Of a stretch of 64,000 nt of DNA, positions 18,773-55,335 are shown in pieces (within the stretch, counting starts at the first letter, position 1; each line of letters begins with the position of its first letter). Origin of the DNA: Dietzia lutea (GTDB taxonomy: Bacteria > Actinomycetota > Actinomycetes > Mycobacteriales > Mycobacteriaceae); NCBI RefSeq assembly GCF_003096075.1, contig NZ_CP015449.1, positions 1,364,001-1,428,000 of the forward strand, written 5' to 3'. Under the pieces are notes generated by a model. It was not told where the DNA came from, made no database searches, and worked only from the letters and a program-made list of their open reading frames with translations. The position numbers and the translations under genes were made by a program.

Positions 18773-20113
18773 ATGAACCGCCAGCAGGAGTACGTTCTCA
18801 GGACCCTCGAGGAACGCGACATCCGGTTCGTCCGGCTCTGGTTCACGGACGTGCTCGGCACCTTGAAATCCGTGGCAGTGGCGCCGGCCGAGCTCGAGGG
18901 GGCCTTCGGCGAGGGCATCGGCTTCGACGGCTCCGCGATCGAGGGGTTCTCCCGCGTGTCCGAGGCGGACACCGTCGCAAAGCCCGACCCGTCGACCTTT
19001 CAGGTCCTGCCGTGGGCGCACGCCGACGGCGGCCAGCACTCGGCACGCATCTTCTGCGACATCTACAACCCGGACGGCGGCCCGAGCTGGGCCGATCCGC
19101 GCCACGTGCTGCGGCGCCAGCTCAACAAGGCCGCCGACCTCGGCTTCTCCTGCTACGTGCACCCGGAGATCGAGTTCTTCCTGTTCAAGGACCTCGACAC
19201 CAACGGCGCCGAGCCGGTGCCCACGGACAACGGCGGCTACTTCGACCAGGCCGTACACGACACCGCCCCGCACTTCCGGCGGCACGCGATCGAGGCGCTC
19301 GAGGCCATGGGCATCTCGGTGGAGTTCTCCCACCACGAGGGTGCGCCGGGGCAGCAGGAGATCGACCTGCGCTATGCCGACGCCCTGAGCATGGCGGACA
19401 ACATCATGACGTTCCGCTACATCGTCAAGGAGGTGGCCATGAACAACGGGGTGTGGGCGTCGTTCATGCCCAAGCCCCTGCGCGACCACCCCGGTTCGGC
19501 CATGCACACCCACATGAGCCTGTTCGAGGGCGACTCCAACGCGTTCCACGACCCGGACGACGAGTACCAGCTGTCGGGTACCGCGAAGTCGTTCGTCGCG
19601 GGCATCCTCACGCACGCGCCCGAGTTCTCGGCCGTGACCAACCAGTGGGTCAACTCCTACAAGCGACTCATCGGTGGTGGCGAGGCCCCCACGGCGGCCA
19701 CGTGGGGCCGCGCCAACCGCTCGGCGCTGGTGCGGGTGCCCATGTACACGCCCAACAAGGCGTCCTCCCGCCGCATCGAGGTCCGCAGCCCGGACTCGGC
19801 GTGCAACCCGTACCTGGCGTTCGCGGTGATGTTCGCCGCCGGCATCAAGGGCGTCCAGGAGGGCTACGAACTGCCGCCGGAGTCCGAGGACGACGTGTGG
19901 ACCATGAGCCGCCGCGAGCGCCGCGCGATGGGCTACACCGACCTGCCGGGCAGCCTCGAGCAGGCGCTGGACGCGATGGAGGAATCGGAGCTGGTCGCCG
20001 AGGCGCTCGGCGAGCACGTCTTCGAGTTCTTCCTGCGGAACAAGCGCCGTGAGTGGCGCGAGTACCGGACCGACGTGACCCCGTACGAGCTGCGCAACTA
20101 CCTCAACCTGTGA
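18773..20113 (+). CDS. glnA2: type I glutamine synthetase, GlnA2 paralogue
   Basis: The 446-residue ATP-dependent glutamate-ammonia ligase family member shows [11 protein letters not shown], the glutamate-binding [27 protein letters not shown], and [21 protein letters not shown]. It is shorter than GlnA1 and at the adenylylation loop reads [13 protein letters not shown], without the NLY/DLY tyrosine, so it should not be modified by GlnE. It matches the GSI-alpha-like GlnA2 of M. tuberculosis by position and size. GlnA2 proteins are not always the main glutamine synthetase, so its physiological role is open. It overlaps glnE by 4 nt. Confidence 0.92.
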
Positions 20114-49205: not shown

Positions 49206-50363
49206 TTACAGCCCCATGTCCTTGGCGATGATGGTCTTCATGACCTCGTTGGTTCCGCCGTAGATCCGGTTCACGCGGTTGTCGGAGTAGAGGCGCGCGA
49301 TCGGGTACTCGTTGATGAAGCCGTAGCCGCCGTGCAGCTGGAGACAGCGGTCGATGACCTCGGCCGCGACCTCGGTGCAGAACAACTTGGCCGAGGCGGC
49401 CTCGGCGGCCGTGAGCTCGCCCGCGTCGAGCGCCTCGAGAGCCCGGTCGGCGACGGCCTGCGCGGCATCGACCTTGGCCTGGCAGGCCGCGAGCTCGAAC
49501 TTGGTGTTCTGGAAGGCGGAGACGGGCTTGCCGAACACCTCGCGCTGCCGGGTGTATTCCTTGGCGAAACGCACCGCGGCCGCGGCCTGCGCGTAGGCGC
49601 CGAAGGCGATGCCCCAGCGCTCCGACGGAAGGTTCTGGCCGAGGTACGAGAAGCCCCGGTTTTCCTCGCCGAGGAGGTCCTCGACGGGCACCTTGACGTC
49701 GGTGAAGGACAGCTCGGCGGTGTCGGAGGTCTTGAGTCCGACCTTGTCGAGCTTCCGGCCCACGGAGTAGCCCTCGAGCGAGGTCTGCACCGCGAGCAGG
49801 GAGATGCCGAATCGGCGGTCGTCCTCGCGCGGCGGCGCGGTACGCGCGCAGACGATGACGCGATCGGCGTGGACGCCGCCGGTGATGAAGGTCTTGGCCC
49901 CGTTGAGGATGTAGTGGGTGCCGTCCTCGGAGAGCTTGGCGGTGGTCTTCATGCCGGCGAGGTCCGAACCGGTGCCCGGCTCGGTCATGGCGATGGCCCA
50001 CATCTCCTCGCCGGAGACGAACTTGGGGAAGTATCGAGACTTCTGCTCGTCGGTCGCGAGCATCTTCAGGTAAGGCAGGCAAAGGGCCACGTGGACGTTG
50101 GACCCTCCGAAGCTCACGCCTGCGCGGATGACCTCCTCGGACTGGATGGCCTCGAACTTGTGCGAGTCGAGGCCGGCACCGCCGTACTCCTCGTCCACGG
50201 TGATGCCGAACAGGCCGAGGTCGGCGAGCTTGTAGTAGAAGTCGCGCGGGACGATCCCGGCTTCGTACCACTCGTCGTAGTGGGGGACGACCTCGGACTC
50301 GATGAAGTCGCGGAGGGTCTTCCGGAAGGCCTCGTGGTCTTCGTTGAACACAGTGCGGCGCAA
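49206..50363 (-). CDS. acyl-CoA dehydrogenase
   Basis: This FAD enzyme introduces a trans-2 double bond into acyl-CoA in beta-oxidation or related catabolism. The 385-residue product starts LRRTVFNEDHEAFRKTLRDF and has FGITVDEEYGGAG, the FAD-binding MTEPGTGSDLAGM, RQREVFGKPVSAFQ, QLHGGYGFINEYPIARLYSD and YGGTNEVMK. The position occupied by the catalytic Glu of MCAD/SCAD (YEGT) is Gly here. A glutamate elsewhere, as in isovaleryl/long-chain types, is expected to act. The TTG at 50363 is chosen because GGAAAGG lies about 8 nt upstream and it matches the family N-terminus. Substrate unknown. Confidence 0.9.
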   Translation of the reverse strand: MRRTVFNEDHEAFRKTLRDFIESEVVPHYDEWYEAGIVPRDFYYKLADLGLFGITVDEEYGGAGLDSHKFEAIQSEEVIRAGVSFGGSNVHVALCLPYLKMLATDEQKSRYFPKFVSGEEMWAIAMTEPGTGSDLAGMKTTAKLSEDGTHYILNGAKTFITGGVHADRVIVCARTAPPREDDRRFGISLLAVQTSLEGYSVGRKLDKVGLKTSDTAELSFTDVKVPVEDLLGEENRGFSYLGQNLPSERWGIAFGAYAQAAAAVRFAKEYTRQREVFGKPVSAFQNTKFELAACQAKVDAAQAVADRALEALDAGELTAAEAASAKLFCTEVAAEVIDRCLQLHGGYGFINEYPIARLYSDNRVNRIYGGTNEVMKTIIAKDMGL

Positions 50364-50444
50364 GAGGGTGCCTTTCCATCGGTGGCCCGCCCGGGTCGGC
50401 GGACCGATCGTGCCGGAGGGGAGCGGGGCGTCGGGTAGTGGACT

Positions 50445-50460
50445 GTTACCGGTGAGTAGC
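50445..50460. promoter_or_regulatory. imperfect operator-like inverted repeat upstream of the acyl-CoA dehydrogenase
   Basis: GTTAC-N6-GTAGC overlaps the candidate leftward -10 TAAGCT (50463 to 50458). It resembles the CTTAC-N6-GTAAG site at 14131-14146. Confidence 0.4.
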
Positions 50461-50515
50461 TTACAAGAAACCGACTGCGCTCCGCGGGTTCCACACCTCA
50501 TCCGTTTCGGCTATC

Positions 50516-51052
50516 TCACTCATTGCCGGGGATGAATTCCAGGCCTTCGTCCGCGACGATCCGGATCGGACCGCTGACGTCCGTCCCGTCGACTCGCTGA
50601 CCCTTCCGCGTCACCGCTACCACGCCCCCGTCGCGGAGCTCGAATGCGACCGAACGCGCGGCCTCCATATGGTCGCGCCAGCCCTCCCCGCCGACGACCC
50701 GGGCGGCATCCGAGGGGCATATCGACCCGGTGCCGCGGGATCGCAGGAGGGTTCTGATCGTCGCCTCGAGTCGCCGCCGCGTGCCCTCGTCGGTCGGCTC
50801 CCACCACGGATCGCCGCGCTCGCCGAGGGCGACCTTCGCGTCATGCACCATCACCCGGGCCGCGTCTCCCCGGGCCTTGACCTCACGCCGCCCGGTCATC
50901 AGTGCGCGAACCAGCTCGGCGCGGAGCTTCTCGGGGATCGAGGGGTCGGTCGCGCGCCAACGTCTGCCGCCGACCACGACGTAGTGGCCGTCGTCCGCGT
51001 GTTCCGCGCCGTCGGCCGGGCCCTGCTGATTGTCGGTCACCCTGTCGATCAT
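50516..51052 (-). CDS. DUF3253 domain protein
   Basis: The 178-residue cytosolic protein has an N-terminal segment HYVVVGGRRWRATDPSIPEKLRAEL with a charged helix VRALMTGRREVKARGD (about 25-75). A DUF3253 domain follows (about 95-165) with RRRLEATIRTLLRSRGTGSICPSDAARVV split around residue 115, MEAARSVAFELRDGG and GPIRI. DUF3253 looks like a winged-helix fold; function unknown. The ATG at 51052 is chosen because the upstream in-frame extension is non-conserved. It is divergent from the KstD-like gene with 124 nt between. Confidence 0.75.
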   Translation of the reverse strand: MIDRVTDNQQGPADGAEHADDGHYVVVGGRRWRATDPSIPEKLRAELVRALMTGRREVKARGDAARVMVHDAKVALGERGDPWWEPTDEGTRRRLEATIRTLLRSRGTGSICPSDAARVVGGEGWRDHMEAARSVAFELRDGGVVAVTRKGQRVDGTDVSGPIRIVADEGLEFIPGNE

Positions 51053-51133
51053 GCCTGTGAGAGTCCGCGGTCGGCGGTGATCGCATCCGACGGCGGTCTG
51101 TCCGAGGCCGGTGTTATCGTCACGACAGGGCAC

Positions 51134-51147
51134 TGAAACGCGTTCCA
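51134..51147. promoter_or_regulatory. KstR-type operator upstream of the KstD-like gene
   Basis: TGAAACGCGTTCCA matches the published KstR consensus TnnAACnnGTTnnA at all fixed positions. It lies 29 nt before the GTG at 51177, where repression of the promoter would be expected. Confidence 0.6.
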
Positions 51148-51176
51148 CCGGATGAGACGGAAGACGAGGGACCTTC

Positions 51177-52745
51177 GTGACGGCGCAGGACAGAACTTTC
51201 GACGCGGAATTCGACGTGGTGGTCGTGGGGTCGGGGGTGGCCGCGCTGTTCGGCGCCGCCGCCGCGGCCTCGCGCGGACTGTCCACCTGCCTGATCGAGA
51301 AGACCGACCGATTCGGCGGAACCTCCGCGTACTCCGGCGGGGCGGTGTGGCTGCCCGGTAACGCGGTCCTCGCCAGAGACGGTGTCGACGACTCAGTCGA
51401 GAAGGGCCGGACCTACTTCCGTGCGGTGGTGGGCGACCGAACCGACCGGGACGTACAGGACGCCTTCCTCAACACGGGGCCGGCGGTCGTCACCTTCCTG
51501 CAGGAGGAACTGGGCATCCCCACCAGGTTCCAGGCGTTCCCCGACTACTTCGACGCGCCGGGGCGCCAGGAACAGGGCCGGAGCATCTACCCGAAGCCGA
51601 TCAAGGGCGAGGAGGTCGGGGATCGGGCGGCGGATGTGCGTCCGCCGGTTCCCGCCGACCAGTTCGGCGCCGCCGAGGACACCACCCGGCTGGAGGGAGG
51701 CCGCGCATGGGTGGCCCGGCTCGTGCTCGCGCTCGACGCGATGGACTCCGCCGAGACGCGTCTGAACACCGCGGCGCAGGAACTGGTGCGGGACGAGGAC
51801 GGACGCGTGATCGGGGTGGCCGTCGACGGTGAGGGCGGCCGCCGGCTGCTCGGTGCCCGTCGAGGCGTGCTGGTCGCCGCGGGTGGGTTCGAGCGTTCCG
51901 GGGAGCTGCGTCACCGTTGGCAGCAGATGCCCACCGCCGATTGGTCGTCCTCGCATCCGGACACCGGCTCCGGCGACGCGGTCCGCATGTTCGAGCACGT
52001 CGGGGCGCAGCTCGACCTGCTCGACCAGTCGTGGTGGTGCCCCGCCACCCTTTTCCCGAACGGCCACGCGGCGTTCACGCTGGGGTTCCGCTCCGGGTTC
52101 ATCGTCGACGGCACGGGCCGTCGGTTCGCCGACGAGCTCCTGCCCTACGACCAGATGGGCCGCCGGATGCGCGCCCGGATGGCGGACGGGGCCGGTGACG
52201 AGTTCTGGCTGATCTTCGACGACGCCGAGGCCGGTAACTTCCCGGCCATCTGCATCCCCGCGCCCGAACCCGACCAGCTGCGCGAGGCGGGACTGTGGCA
52301 CACCGCCGGTTCCGTCGACGAGCTGGCGGCCGCCACCGGGCTGGACGCCGCGGCGCTGCAGGAGAGCCTCGAGCGGTTCAACGGCTTCGCCGAGCAGGGG
52401 AGGGACGCGGACTTTGCCCGGGGGGAGGACCCGTACGGTCGCTTCTTCCTGGGCGTCTCCACGGCCGAGCAGTGCCTGCGGCCCGTGGGAGGGGACCGTC
52501 TGCACGCCGTCCGCCTGGTCCTCGGTGACCTGGGCACCAAGGGCGGCGCGGTGATCGACGCGAACGGTGCCGTGCTCGACACGGAGGGTCGACCGATCCC
52601 GGGCCTGTACGCGGCGGGCAACTCGTCGGCGTCGGTGTCCGGGGAGGCCTACCCCGGGCCGGGCGTCCCGCTCGGCTCCGGAATGGCCATGGCCTTCCGC
52701 GCTGTGGCTGACATGGCCGGGGAGCCGTTGCCGATCGCACCCTGA
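51177..52745 (+). CDS. FAD-dependent 3-ketosteroid dehydrogenase-like flavoprotein (KstD family)
   Basis: The 522-residue flavoprotein of the fumarate reductase/KstD family has the FAD motif VVVGSGVAALFGA, the second FAD element FGGTSAYSGGAVWLPGN, LVAAGGF, and the C-terminal GLYAAGNSSASVSGEAYPGPGVPLGSG. In this last stretch Tyr492 and Gly496 correspond to the Tyr487/Gly491 pair that supports catalysis in Rhodococcus KstD1. It therefore probably dehydrogenates a 3-ketosteroid or related cyclic ketone. The GTG at 51177 has GAGGGA about 6 nt upstream. A perfect KstR-type operator 29 nt upstream supports membership of a steroid regulon. No other steroid genes are in the window. Confidence 0.83.
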   Translation: MTAQDRTFDAEFDVVVVGSGVAALFGAAAAASRGLSTCLIEKTDRFGGTSAYSGGAVWLPGNAVLARDGVDDSVEKGRTYFRAVVGDRTDRDVQDAFLNTGPAVVTFLQEELGIPTRFQAFPDYFDAPGRQEQGRSIYPKPIKGEEVGDRAADVRPPVPADQFGAAEDTTRLEGGRAWVARLVLALDAMDSAETRLNTAAQELVRDEDGRVIGVAVDGEGGRRLLGARRGVLVAAGGFERSGELRHRWQQMPTADWSSSHPDTGSGDAVRMFEHVGAQLDLLDQSWWCPATLFPNGHAAFTLGFRSGFIVDGTGRRFADELLPYDQMGRRMRARMADGAGDEFWLIFDDAEAGNFPAICIPAPEPDQLREAGLWHTAGSVDELAAATGLDAAALQESLERFNGFAEQGRDADFARGEDPYGRFFLGVSTAEQCLRPVGGDRLHAVRLVLGDLGTKGGAVIDANGAVLDTEGRPIPGLYAAGNSSASVSGEAYPGPGVPLGSGMAMAFRAVADMAGEPLPIAP

Positions 52746-52815: not shown

Positions 52816-55335
52816 TCAGCGGCCGGCCCAGCGGAGGAAGTCGGCGACCGGGACGACCGGTGTGCCCCACCGCTGGGCGGCCCGCGACTTGGTCGACTGG
52901 CTGCCCGGTTCGGCGATCACCAGCACGTCGCAGCGGGACTTGGTCACCGCCGACACCGGCTCGAGACCGCGCCGGCGAGCCATGCCTTCCATCTCGTCCC
53001 GCGCCACCACCGTGCCGTCCCGGTCGAGTGCACTACCGGTGAAACACACGCGCGCCCCGGGCCGCAGCACCTCGGCCACGTCGACCGCCGGCGCGGCCTC
53101 CAGCCCCCGCGTGAGATCCGAGCCCACCACCTCGGAGGCCAGCCGCAGCCTGTCGAGCAGGACTGCGGTCATCGGTACCCGCTGCGCGGCGCGACGGATC
53201 TGGTCGGCCACGAGCCCGCGCGCTCCCACCACGACATCGCGGTCGCCTGCGGTGATCACCTCGTCGTCGTCGCCAGTTCCCGGGTGACCACCGCGGCGCG
53301 GTGGGTCGAGTAGTACCGCCGACACCTCCGCGCTGATCCGCAGCATCGCCGACAGCTGGGGGAGTGCGGCCGGGGACGGTGGGTGGGCGTCGCCGTCGCG
53401 GGTGAGGAGGTACCCGCCCCGCGCCGGCTCCGCCGGACCCACCGCGCCCGGCCCCACCGCGCCCGCACCGGCCTCGTCCCCGTGCGGGTCGACCCGGTGC
53501 GACCCGGCGCCGACCACGTCGAACACCCCGGCGCCGGTCTCGTCGAGCCACAGCCGCTCCCGGGCCTCGAGTGCGACGCGCGCACGGCGGATCGCCGAGC
53601 CGGCGCGATGACGGGCACGCTCACCGGGAATGAGCGCGGCGGAGGGGATGTCCACCCCGGGCGGCATCGCCACCGGACTGCCCAGTCGCTCGAGCTCGGC
53701 GGCGAGACACTCCAGCGTGGCGTCCAGGTTCACGCCTATCGGCGTGTAGCCGTCCACGAGCGGCGCGATCATCGCCCACGCCTCCGGCAACGTCGGCGCG
53801 AGCAGCACGTCGGACGCGCTGATCCCGTAGTCCGCCCGCGCCTGCCCCAGGTCGCGCTGCGGGTTGACCAGCGTGGTCACCGCGCTACCGTCCGGGAATA
53901 CCACCGCGAGCTCCACCGGCCGCGGACGGGAACGGGCGCCGTCGCCCCCGACGGTGAGCGCCGCGATCGCACAGTAGCGTCGGCCGTGGACGTCGCCCTC
54001 GGGGTCGCGGAGGAACCGGAGGATCCGGCGGTCGGTTCCGAGGTCGCCCGGCCTGACCGGCCGGGTGAGGACGAGACCGTCCAGGGAACGCGACCGGCTG
54101 AGCGCGACATACAACTGGCCGGGCGCGAAGGTGCCGCCGCCGAGGTCCACGATGAGCCTGTCCAGCGTCTGACCCTGGCTCTTGTGGATGGTGATCGCCC
54201 AGGCCAGGGTGAAAGGGAACTGGCTGAAGGAGCCGACGGCCTCGTGGCGCACCGTGCCGTCGGAGCCGTAGGGGCGGGTCACGTCCCAGGTGTGTGGGGC
54301 GACCTCGGCCACCTCACCACCGGGGAATCCGACGACGACGACGGGTCCTGTCTCTCCCCGGCCCTCCCGTCGCCCCGGCGACGCATCGAGCACCCGCCCG
54401 ATGGAGCCGTTGACCCAGCGGTCCGCCGGGTCATTGGTGAGCATCATGACCTGGGCGCCGACCTTGAACACGAGCCTCGCCTCGGTCGGAGGCTCGAACC
54501 CGGTGAGGTCGCCGGTGATGGCAGCCTCCATCGTCAGCTCTGCCCCGGGGAGACGGTCGAGGCGTCGGCGATTGTGGGCGGCGGCCATCCGGTTGGTGGT
54601 GGTCAGCGTCAGCCACGGCGCGTCGTCCGGCGGCTCGAACCCCGGGTCGGTGCGCGAGTTGAGCCGCTCGAGTGCGGTGCCGACGAGCGTGCCCTCGCGG
54701 ATCGAGTTGAGGATGGCGGTCAGCTCCGGGTCGCCGGACTGCCGGAAGACGTGGGTGAGATCGACGGTGGGGAAGCGGTCGCGGTCGAAGCGCTCGGCGG
54801 AGAAGAAGTAGGGGGTCGTGTACGCCGCGTCGAAGTCGGGGCGCTCCGCCTCGGTGACGACCGGTGGGAGTTGGAAGAGGTCGCCCACCAGGACGAGCTG
54901 GACGCCGCCGAACGGCATCGTGGGGTCCGGACCGAATCGCTCGAGGGCGATCGCCATCATGTCGAACAGGTCGGCGCGGATCATCGACGCCTCGTCCACG
55001 ATCAGTGTGCGGACGCCGGCGAGCGCCCCGGCGAAACGCCCCGGGCGGTACGAGGCACTGCGGACGTGGTCGACGGTGAACCCGGGGTGTAAGCCGAACA
55101 GTCGGTGGATGGTGTAGCCGCCGACGTTGAGTGCGGCGATGCCGGTCGGGGCGGCGACCAGCGTGGGGCGACGGGTCTCCTCGAGGAAGCGACGGATGAG
55201 GGTCGACTTGCCGGTGCCCGCCTTGCCGGTGAGAAAGAGGTCGTGCCCGCCGTGGAGGAGTTCGAGGGCGTGGTCGACCTCATCGGTGAGCACGATCCCA
55301 CCGTCCGCGCCGGACGTGTGTGACTGCTCGGTCAT
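52816..55335 (-). CDS. PIF1-like DNA helicase with degenerate DnaQ-like domain and C-terminal BRCT
   Basis: The 839-residue protein starts with a superfamily 1B (PIF1/RecD-type) helicase (about 1-430): Walker A GKAGTGKST at 37-45, LVAAPTGIAALNVGG, Walker B LIVDEASM, LVGDLFQLPPV, and late motifs AWAITIHKSQGQTLD and YVALSRSRSL. Residues about 455-555 resemble a DEDDh exonuclease fold (VELAVVF, TLVNPQRD, YGISASDV), but the DxE of motif I is replaced (AALTVGG), so it looks inactive. A linker leads to a BRCT domain (about 758-839, VCFTGSALD, ...WGTPVVPVADFLRW). Likely role is in DNA repair or replication; no experimental counterpart is known to me. It ends 70 nt from the KstD-like gene, convergently. 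Confidence 0.8.
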   Translation of the reverse strand: MTEQSHTSGADGGIVLTDEVDHALELLHGGHDLFLTGKAGTGKSTLIRRFLEETRRPTLVAAPTGIAALNVGGYTIHRLFGLHPGFTVDHVRSASYRPGRFAGALAGVRTLIVDEASMIRADLFDMMAIALERFGPDPTMPFGGVQLVLVGDLFQLPPVVTEAERPDFDAAYTTPYFFSAERFDRDRFPTVDLTHVFRQSGDPELTAILNSIREGTLVGTALERLNSRTDPGFEPPDDAPWLTLTTTNRMAAAHNRRRLDRLPGAELTMEAAITGDLTGFEPPTEARLVFKVGAQVMMLTNDPADRWVNGSIGRVLDASPGRREGRGETGPVVVVGFPGGEVAEVAPHTWDVTRPYGSDGTVRHEAVGSFSQFPFTLAWAITIHKSQGQTLDRLIVDLGGGTFAPGQLYVALSRSRSLDGLVLTRPVRPGDLGTDRRILRFLRDPEGDVHGRRYCAIAALTVGGDGARSRPRPVELAVVFPDGSAVTTLVNPQRDLGQARADYGISASDVLLAPTLPEAWAMIAPLVDGYTPIGVNLDATLECLAAELERLGSPVAMPPGVDIPSAALIPGERARHRAGSAIRRARVALEARERLWLDETGAGVFDVVGAGSHRVDPHGDEAGAGAVGPGAVGPAEPARGGYLLTRDGDAHPPSPAALPQLSAMLRISAEVSAVLLDPPRRGGHPGTGDDDEVITAGDRDVVVGARGLVADQIRRAAQRVPMTAVLLDRLRLASEVVGSDLTRGLEAAPAVDVAEVLRPGARVCFTGSALDRDGTVVARDEMEGMARRRGLEPVSAVTKSRCDVLVIAEPGSQSTKSRAAQRWGTPVVPVADFLRWAGR

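Follow-up and report, generated by a model that had tools for sequence, protein, structure and literature searches.

A KstR-repressed promoter most likely drives a stand-alone 3-ketosteroid Δ1-dehydrogenase (KstD) gene in Dietzia lutea, to judge from the sequence of the locus and its counterparts. Because the same repressor site occurs here and at the corresponding genes of related Dietzia genomes, it is very probable that this lone kstD gene is induced by sterols as part of one gene set with the steroid cluster of the genome. It would add to the KstR sterol regulon an off-cluster member that is common to most sampled Dietzia genomes, alongside two dispersed candidates, an OYE-family gene and an HsaD-like hydrolase. 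Annotation confined to the cluster would miss all of these. The window, meaning the whole stretch of DNA analysed, is 64,000 nucleotides long, and the features that matter here are as follows.

19535 to 19548, no strand: second match to the operator pattern, inside a glutamine-synthetase-like open reading frame, taken as chance
49206 to 50501, minus strand: acyl-CoA dehydrogenase family protein, a neighbour of the kstD gene at all 20 Dietzia loci
50516 to 51052, minus strand: DUF3253 protein, the divergent neighbour, start codon assumed, in 10 of 15 Dietzia loci
51115 to 51120, plus strand: -10-like hexamer TATCGT, 13 nt before the operator, a putative promoter element
51134 to 51147, no strand: KstR-type operator TGAAACGCGTTCCA, with a strict match before each of the 20 Dietzia genes of the locus
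51166 to 51171, plus strand: GAGGGA, a putative Shine-Dalgarno-like element read from the sequence
51177 to 52745, plus strand: predicted 3-ketosteroid Δ1-dehydrogenase of 522 aa, similar in type to KstD1 from R. erythropolis SQ1 and starting with GTG
52816 to 55335, minus strand: PIF1/RecD-like helicase, the convergent downstream neighbour, variable between species

When checked against the window sequence, TGAAACGCGTTCCA agrees at all fixed positions with TnnAACnnGTTnnA, the motif published for KstR (PMC1995591, in the portion available). It lies 29 nt before the GTG at 51177, which is the sole in-frame start after the upstream stop. A preliminary description of this DNA had placed an exact KstR operator at that distance from the start of a flavoprotein, and this is confirmed. 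The same description set the gene outside any steroid cluster, rightly, the cluster being some 570-660 kb distant, and between respiratory and repair genes, which holds for this genome, though the helicase varies between genomes. The helicase is present in nine of 14 Dietzia loci (L091 ends before it), and in the other five qcrB directly follows the kstD gene; it is also missing in one of four further Dietzia genomes. Across the set of 15 Dietzia loci, qcrB lies further along in all 12 that reach that far. The names ctaC, ctaF, asnB and qcrB as used here come from reading translations.

The dehydrogenase and its relatives outside Dietzia

The 522-residue protein gives a FAD_binding_2 Pfam match of 250.8 bits, and its best solved relatives are KstDs. 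It is identical in 239 of 503 aligned residues (48%; E 1e-135) to PDB entry 4c3x, which we take to be KstD1 of R. erythropolis SQ1 (RoKstD1). We regard the fold as settled because of this identity to solved KstDs. The catalytic residues Tyr119, Tyr318, Tyr487 and Gly491 of RoKstD1, whose roles are given in the accessible part of PMC5348764, correspond to Y124, Y324, Y492 and G496. All four are thus present in an enzyme that had been described as carrying the KstD Tyr/Gly catalytic pair. Of 14 pocket residues listed in the same part of that paper, 12 are the same as in SQ1 KstD1, the S52 and V296 of the latter being replaced by Ala and Leu, and the two enzymes sit on separate branches of the tree. 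The pocket residues of R. ruber KstD1 and KstD3, as listed there, differ from those of the Dietzia enzyme. Identity as a KstD2, suggested by a kshA neighbourhood, was rejected, since the pocket reads PGVP as in SQ1 KstD1, versus AGAT in R. ruber KstD2.

None of the NCBIfam KstD cut-offs is reached by the protein (402 of 789 and 387 of 788), but the proven RoKstD1, scored on residues 24-529 of its chain, falls under them as well (454 of 789 and 432 of 788). The missed cut-offs are among the points counted against the reading, but after this control they were set aside as a disproof of KstD identity. The protein and the KstD of the steroid cluster are 40% identical, hence paralogues from different subfamilies. 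A further KstD-like paralogue of this genome (C1:564115-565797) has the pocket end GGNP, as in R. ruber KstD1, and scores above the NF009474 cut-off (859 vs 675); a strict KstR site is absent within 1.5 kb of it.

A quick phylogeny (LG+G4, SH-aLRT only), in which 11 of the 49 inner branches are open and L130 drew a long-branch warning, placed the 18 operator-bearing rows in one clade (SH-aLRT 99), with the copies L074 and L076 outside it (98). Left out of the tree were one broken and one partial copy (L069 and L075), L097, L100 and L102 from Actinomadura, and two remote paralogues from the D. lutea genome itself. The nearest relatives detected outside Dietzia, at 64-68% identity, are that of Rhodococcus phenolicus (L092) and L129, L131, L133 and L134 of the same family. 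A second copy in the Dietzia genome G019 (L158) is 73% identical. Its neighbourhood comprises two IclR regulators, a KshA-type oxygenase (PF19298), HsaA-like and HsaC-like proteins, a LipP1-like esterase and a monooxygenase. The last matches the solved steroid monooxygenase 4aos, presumably that of R. rhodochrous, at E 7e-222. The R. rhodochrous enzyme converts progesterone to testosterone acetate (PMC12239570, in the part available).

Searches by tblastn with the G019 proteins found that KshA, the HsaA-like and HsaC-like proteins, the monooxygenase and IclR recur in five of five other relatives, and the esterase in four of five, one of these being a mere fragment at an edge. This recurring cluster (L158, L152-L156) of IclR, KstD, KshA, HsaA-like, HsaC-like and steroid Baeyer-Villiger monooxygenase genes appears to be a C21/C19 steroid route with regulation of its own, and its six 19-kb stretches contain no strict KstR site. 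The KstDs of the cluster (L158, L092, L129, L131, L133 and L134) fall in the same clade as the enzyme described here, at 64-73% identity, but differ from it in setting: they lie among steroid genes and IclR regulators, and the surrounding 19 kb are free of strict KstR sites. The motif AGCGGGA stands 58-139 nt before the matched KstD start in five relatives (L129, L131-L134) and at -169 in L076, and CAGTGGGAC stands at -91 to -98 in all eight Actinomadura homologues (L095-L102); each is perhaps the site of another regulator. None of the eight Actinomadura homologues has a strict KstR site in the 4 kb scanned upstream.

Such relatives raise the question of what the enzyme acts on. It is conceivable, though on balance unlikely, that the operator is bound by KstR but the main substrate is no sterol intermediate, the enzyme having kept the C21/C19 hormone range of its close relatives and sterol induction being a side effect. 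The closest relatives are accompanied by KshA, by enzymes like HsaA and HsaC and by the Baeyer-Villiger steroid monooxygenase, which would fit such a range, as would the preferences of SQ1 KstD1 for progesterone and of R. ruber KstD1 for 9OHAD and testosterone (PMC5348764, in the part available). However, KstDs are broad in range, so activity on AD and 9OHAD is expected anyway, and the pocket residues are almost those of RoKstD1. Further, the monooxygenase, sought at E 1e-150, is absent from the D. lutea genome and present in three of 23 Dietzia genomes.

The KstR system and conservation of the operator

The reading of the gene as a sterol-regulon member depends on a KstR system in the same genome. 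A scan of that genome (3.91 Mb, four contigs) found 22 distinct TnnAACnnGTTnnA sites, whereas the reversed pattern occurs once. A steroid cluster at 758-842 kb, which also contains kstR and a standard KstD, accounts for ten of these sites. The TetR protein of this cluster scores above the NCBIfam KstR equivalog cut-off (323 vs 280 bits). It also matches solved KstR proteins at E 1e-75, and its helix-turn-helix region is nearly the same as theirs. The gene is divergent from an acyl-CoA dehydrogenase-like gene, and an operator separates the two, which is the layout described for mycobacteria in the available portion of PMC1995591. Cluster genes that adjoin sites encode HsaA (638 vs a cut-off of 450), a steroid 3-ketoacyl-CoA thiolase (662 vs 515), the standard KstD, with its own site at 777773 (952 vs 788), and an MlaE-type permease (131 bits, under its cut-off of 212). 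Taken together, the 22 sites, kstR, and the genes and layout of the cluster therefore indicate that this genome has a normal KstR system. The preliminary description, which saw in the gene an isolated member of the cholesterol/steroid regulon, had proposed searching the genome for kstR and for further TnnAACnnGTTnnA sites. Its view is supported, as far as sequence can go, by a kstR above the equivalog cut-off with an operator adjoining, by the ten operators of the steroid cluster, and by the conservation of the site at 20 of 20 genes.

Across the genus, KstR scores over the cut-off in 22 of 23 genomes, the single miss being a genome that is 64% complete, and Dietzia is named among the genera with a cholesterol pathway in the accessible part of PMC4810484. 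The other 22 genomes hold 12-30 sites versus 1-14 for the reversed pattern, so the contrast is not equally sharp in all of them. The reversed-pattern control, reaching up to 14 in several sister genomes, would weigh against the main reading.

In the window itself, TnnAACnnGTTnnA matches twice, versus 0.05 matches expected from shuffles. The match at 19535 was rejected as a regulon member on its position within a glutamine-synthetase-like (glnA) reading frame, which was identified by reading its translation only. A matrix was built from the ten sites of the steroid cluster, and on it the glnA match reaches 14.4 bits. TGAAACGCGTTCCA is weak in its free positions and scores 17.8 bits, less than all ten cluster sites (19.0-26.4 bits, leave-one-out) and less than the three other dispersed candidates. 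This low score of the D. lutea copy would likewise count against membership in the KstR regulon.

A search of 23 Dietzia genomes at a threshold of E 1e-100 gave a match in 21. These contain 22 genes with more than 70% identity. The acyl-CoA dehydrogenase gene next to them assigns 20 of the genes to this locus (15 + 5 loci), and two lie elsewhere (L074 of G007 and L076 of G019). A strict operator stands upstream of all 20 genes at the locus, in 19 distinct sequences, and was not found upstream of the two copies at other loci. The set of 15 loci (14 distinct, 127,291 bases) contains 15 sites, one per locus and all before the kstD gene, with no match to the reversed pattern. These 15/15 and 20/20 counts overlap and are not independent, L079-L094 appearing to be the same genomes as the loci with G handles, and related Dietzia genomes are not independent events. 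Two pairs of sequences are identical (L065 and L066; L083 and L093).

The eight fixed positions are identical by construction because the rows were picked by the strict pattern, and the evidence of conservation lies in the finding of a match at each gene of the locus, not in the agreement of the fixed positions. In an ungapped, operator-aligned comparison of 19 of the 20 rows, with three register types mixed, the majority letter reaches 80% at the six free positions, 47% in the 60 nt before and 51% in the 25 nt after. The flanks are more alike within one register type. Operator strength ranges from 14.0 to 26.8 bits across the Dietzia rows, and the lowest value, that of L065, is below the glnA chance match, which we count against the reading. 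Also counted against it are the two genomes among the 23 with no copy at E 1e-100, G022 and G017 (78% complete), and G007, where the sole copy sits at another locus without an operator and the acyl-CoA dehydrogenase gene directly adjoins qcrB with no kstD gene in between. Two gene copies that look interrupted, in D. massiliensis (L087/L069, G009) and in G015 (L073), count against it as well; homology is in two pieces in one and a single stop lies within the match in the other, reflecting decay or sequencing error.

We consider it improbable that a different TetR-type repressor, one recognising a motif similar to that of KstR, uses the palindrome. Other-looking palindromes do occur among the genome matches, namely the perfect TGCAACnnGTTGCA at C1:83352 and C1:461503, which has low KstR-matrix scores (13.6 and 10.9 bits) and is possibly bound by another regulator. 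Yet in several sister species the site at the locus equals, letter for letter, a KstR-cluster site of this genome, either TAGAACGTGTTCTA, as beside kstR, or TGGAACGTGTTCCA, and the direct neighbours of the operator are the DUF3253 protein, the acyl-CoA dehydrogenase and the helicase, with no regulator among them. A chance match of the 14-mer can be dismissed: some of the 22 genome matches do fall within open reading frames, but the genome count and the strict site at every gene of the locus despite diverged flanks reject it, and of the 27 homologues scanned elsewhere, whether in Dietzia or in further genera (the cluster KstD not counted), none has a strict site within 1.5 kb on either side.

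Operator registers and the history of the locus

In 18 of 19 rows a TAnnnT box, which may represent a -10 element, takes one of three positions with respect to the operator, here called registers. The first type, counting from the operator's first base, has the box at -18/-19 in seven of eight loci, L075 being without it. In the second type the box is at -5 in six of six loci, its last T being the first T of the operator, and in the third it is at +31/+32 in five of five. The operator lies no more than about 35 nt from the box in each type, and such nearness would suit a repressor site. TAnnnT is a loose word, and two further ones in the scanned stretches, besides the one in L075, are counted against this interpretation. 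Parsimony on the protein tree gives one change for operator presence (31 rows) and three for register (18 rows), the latter being a rough figure because the tree has open forks.

Since the close relatives outside Dietzia lie in the IclR cluster without strict KstR sites, KstR control was probably acquired in Dietzia. The simplest history that the sequences suggest is that in Dietzia a gene of this lineage reached the ctaC-qcrB locus, where it came under KstR control; alternatively, there may have been loss from some lineages rather than gain in others. We speculate, as a plausible if still tentative account, that in an ancestor of most Dietzia a KstD gene from the IclR-associated cluster moved to ctaC-qcrB and was captured by KstR. 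Selection would then have kept the operator and not its place, leading to registers downstream of, overlapping and upstream of the -10 box through at least three changes by parsimony. If true, this represents a natural series in which repressor control is conserved and promoter layout is not. Such a record of how an operator has shifted is uncommon, and the register series would offer a usable system for following how repressor sites move while control stays.

Proposed regulation, precedents and other dispersed sites

In the scheme that we infer for KstR binding, induction and substrate, a KstR dimer on 51134-51147, just downstream of the -10-like box, would block transcription start or promoter clearance when sterol is absent. 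On sterols, KstR would bind a cholestenone-type acid or its CoA thioester, an inducer chemistry that draws on the available part of PMC5348764, and release the operator. The enzyme would then be produced together with the main cluster at 758-842 kb and, alongside the cluster KstD, would add a C1-C2 double bond to 3-keto-4-ene steroids. Engineering of Dietzia-type strains for AD or 9OHAD would thus have to reckon with a second sterol-linked KstD.

Lone KstR-linked kstD genes have a precedent in Nocardioides simplex, where KR76_02655 (kstD1) lies outside clusters, has a predicted KstR site and shows 5.2-fold phytosterol induction (PMC7807495, in the part available). It resembles the Dietzia gene as an off-cluster kstD with a predicted KstR site that is sterol-induced in its own host, and differs in belonging to another genus; the two are likened by description, not by neighbourhood or sequence. 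In R. ruber Chol-4, TnnAACnnGTTnnA boxes likewise occur near kstD1 and kstD3, but they stand between divergent steroid operons, and at kstD1 they are part of the promoter of the upstream cyp450 gene (PMC5348764, in the part available). Among open-licence papers, judged by title or the start of the abstract, none that links Dietzia with KstR, steroids or KstD is apparent on this gene.

Other dispersed sites occur in the D. lutea genome. A strong site at C1:2416500 (L046, L169-L186) stands about 35 nt before the assumed start of the OYE-family (FadH/BaiCD-like) gene, and 17 of the 18 Dietzia loci examined for this gene have a strict site, the miss being G022 and the partial locus L187 being left out. 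A strong consensus site at C1:3723105 (L049, L188-L207) stands just before the HsaD-like hydrolase gene, off the main cluster, and all 20 Dietzia hydrolase loci have a strict site, with two G006 fragments left out. Most OYE and hydrolase rows have almost equal spacing between site and gene, which is not so for the dehydrogenase. Lastly, a strong site at C1:2758576 (L047), scoring 25.6 bits, lies upstream of a matched short-chain dehydrogenase (SDR) domain.
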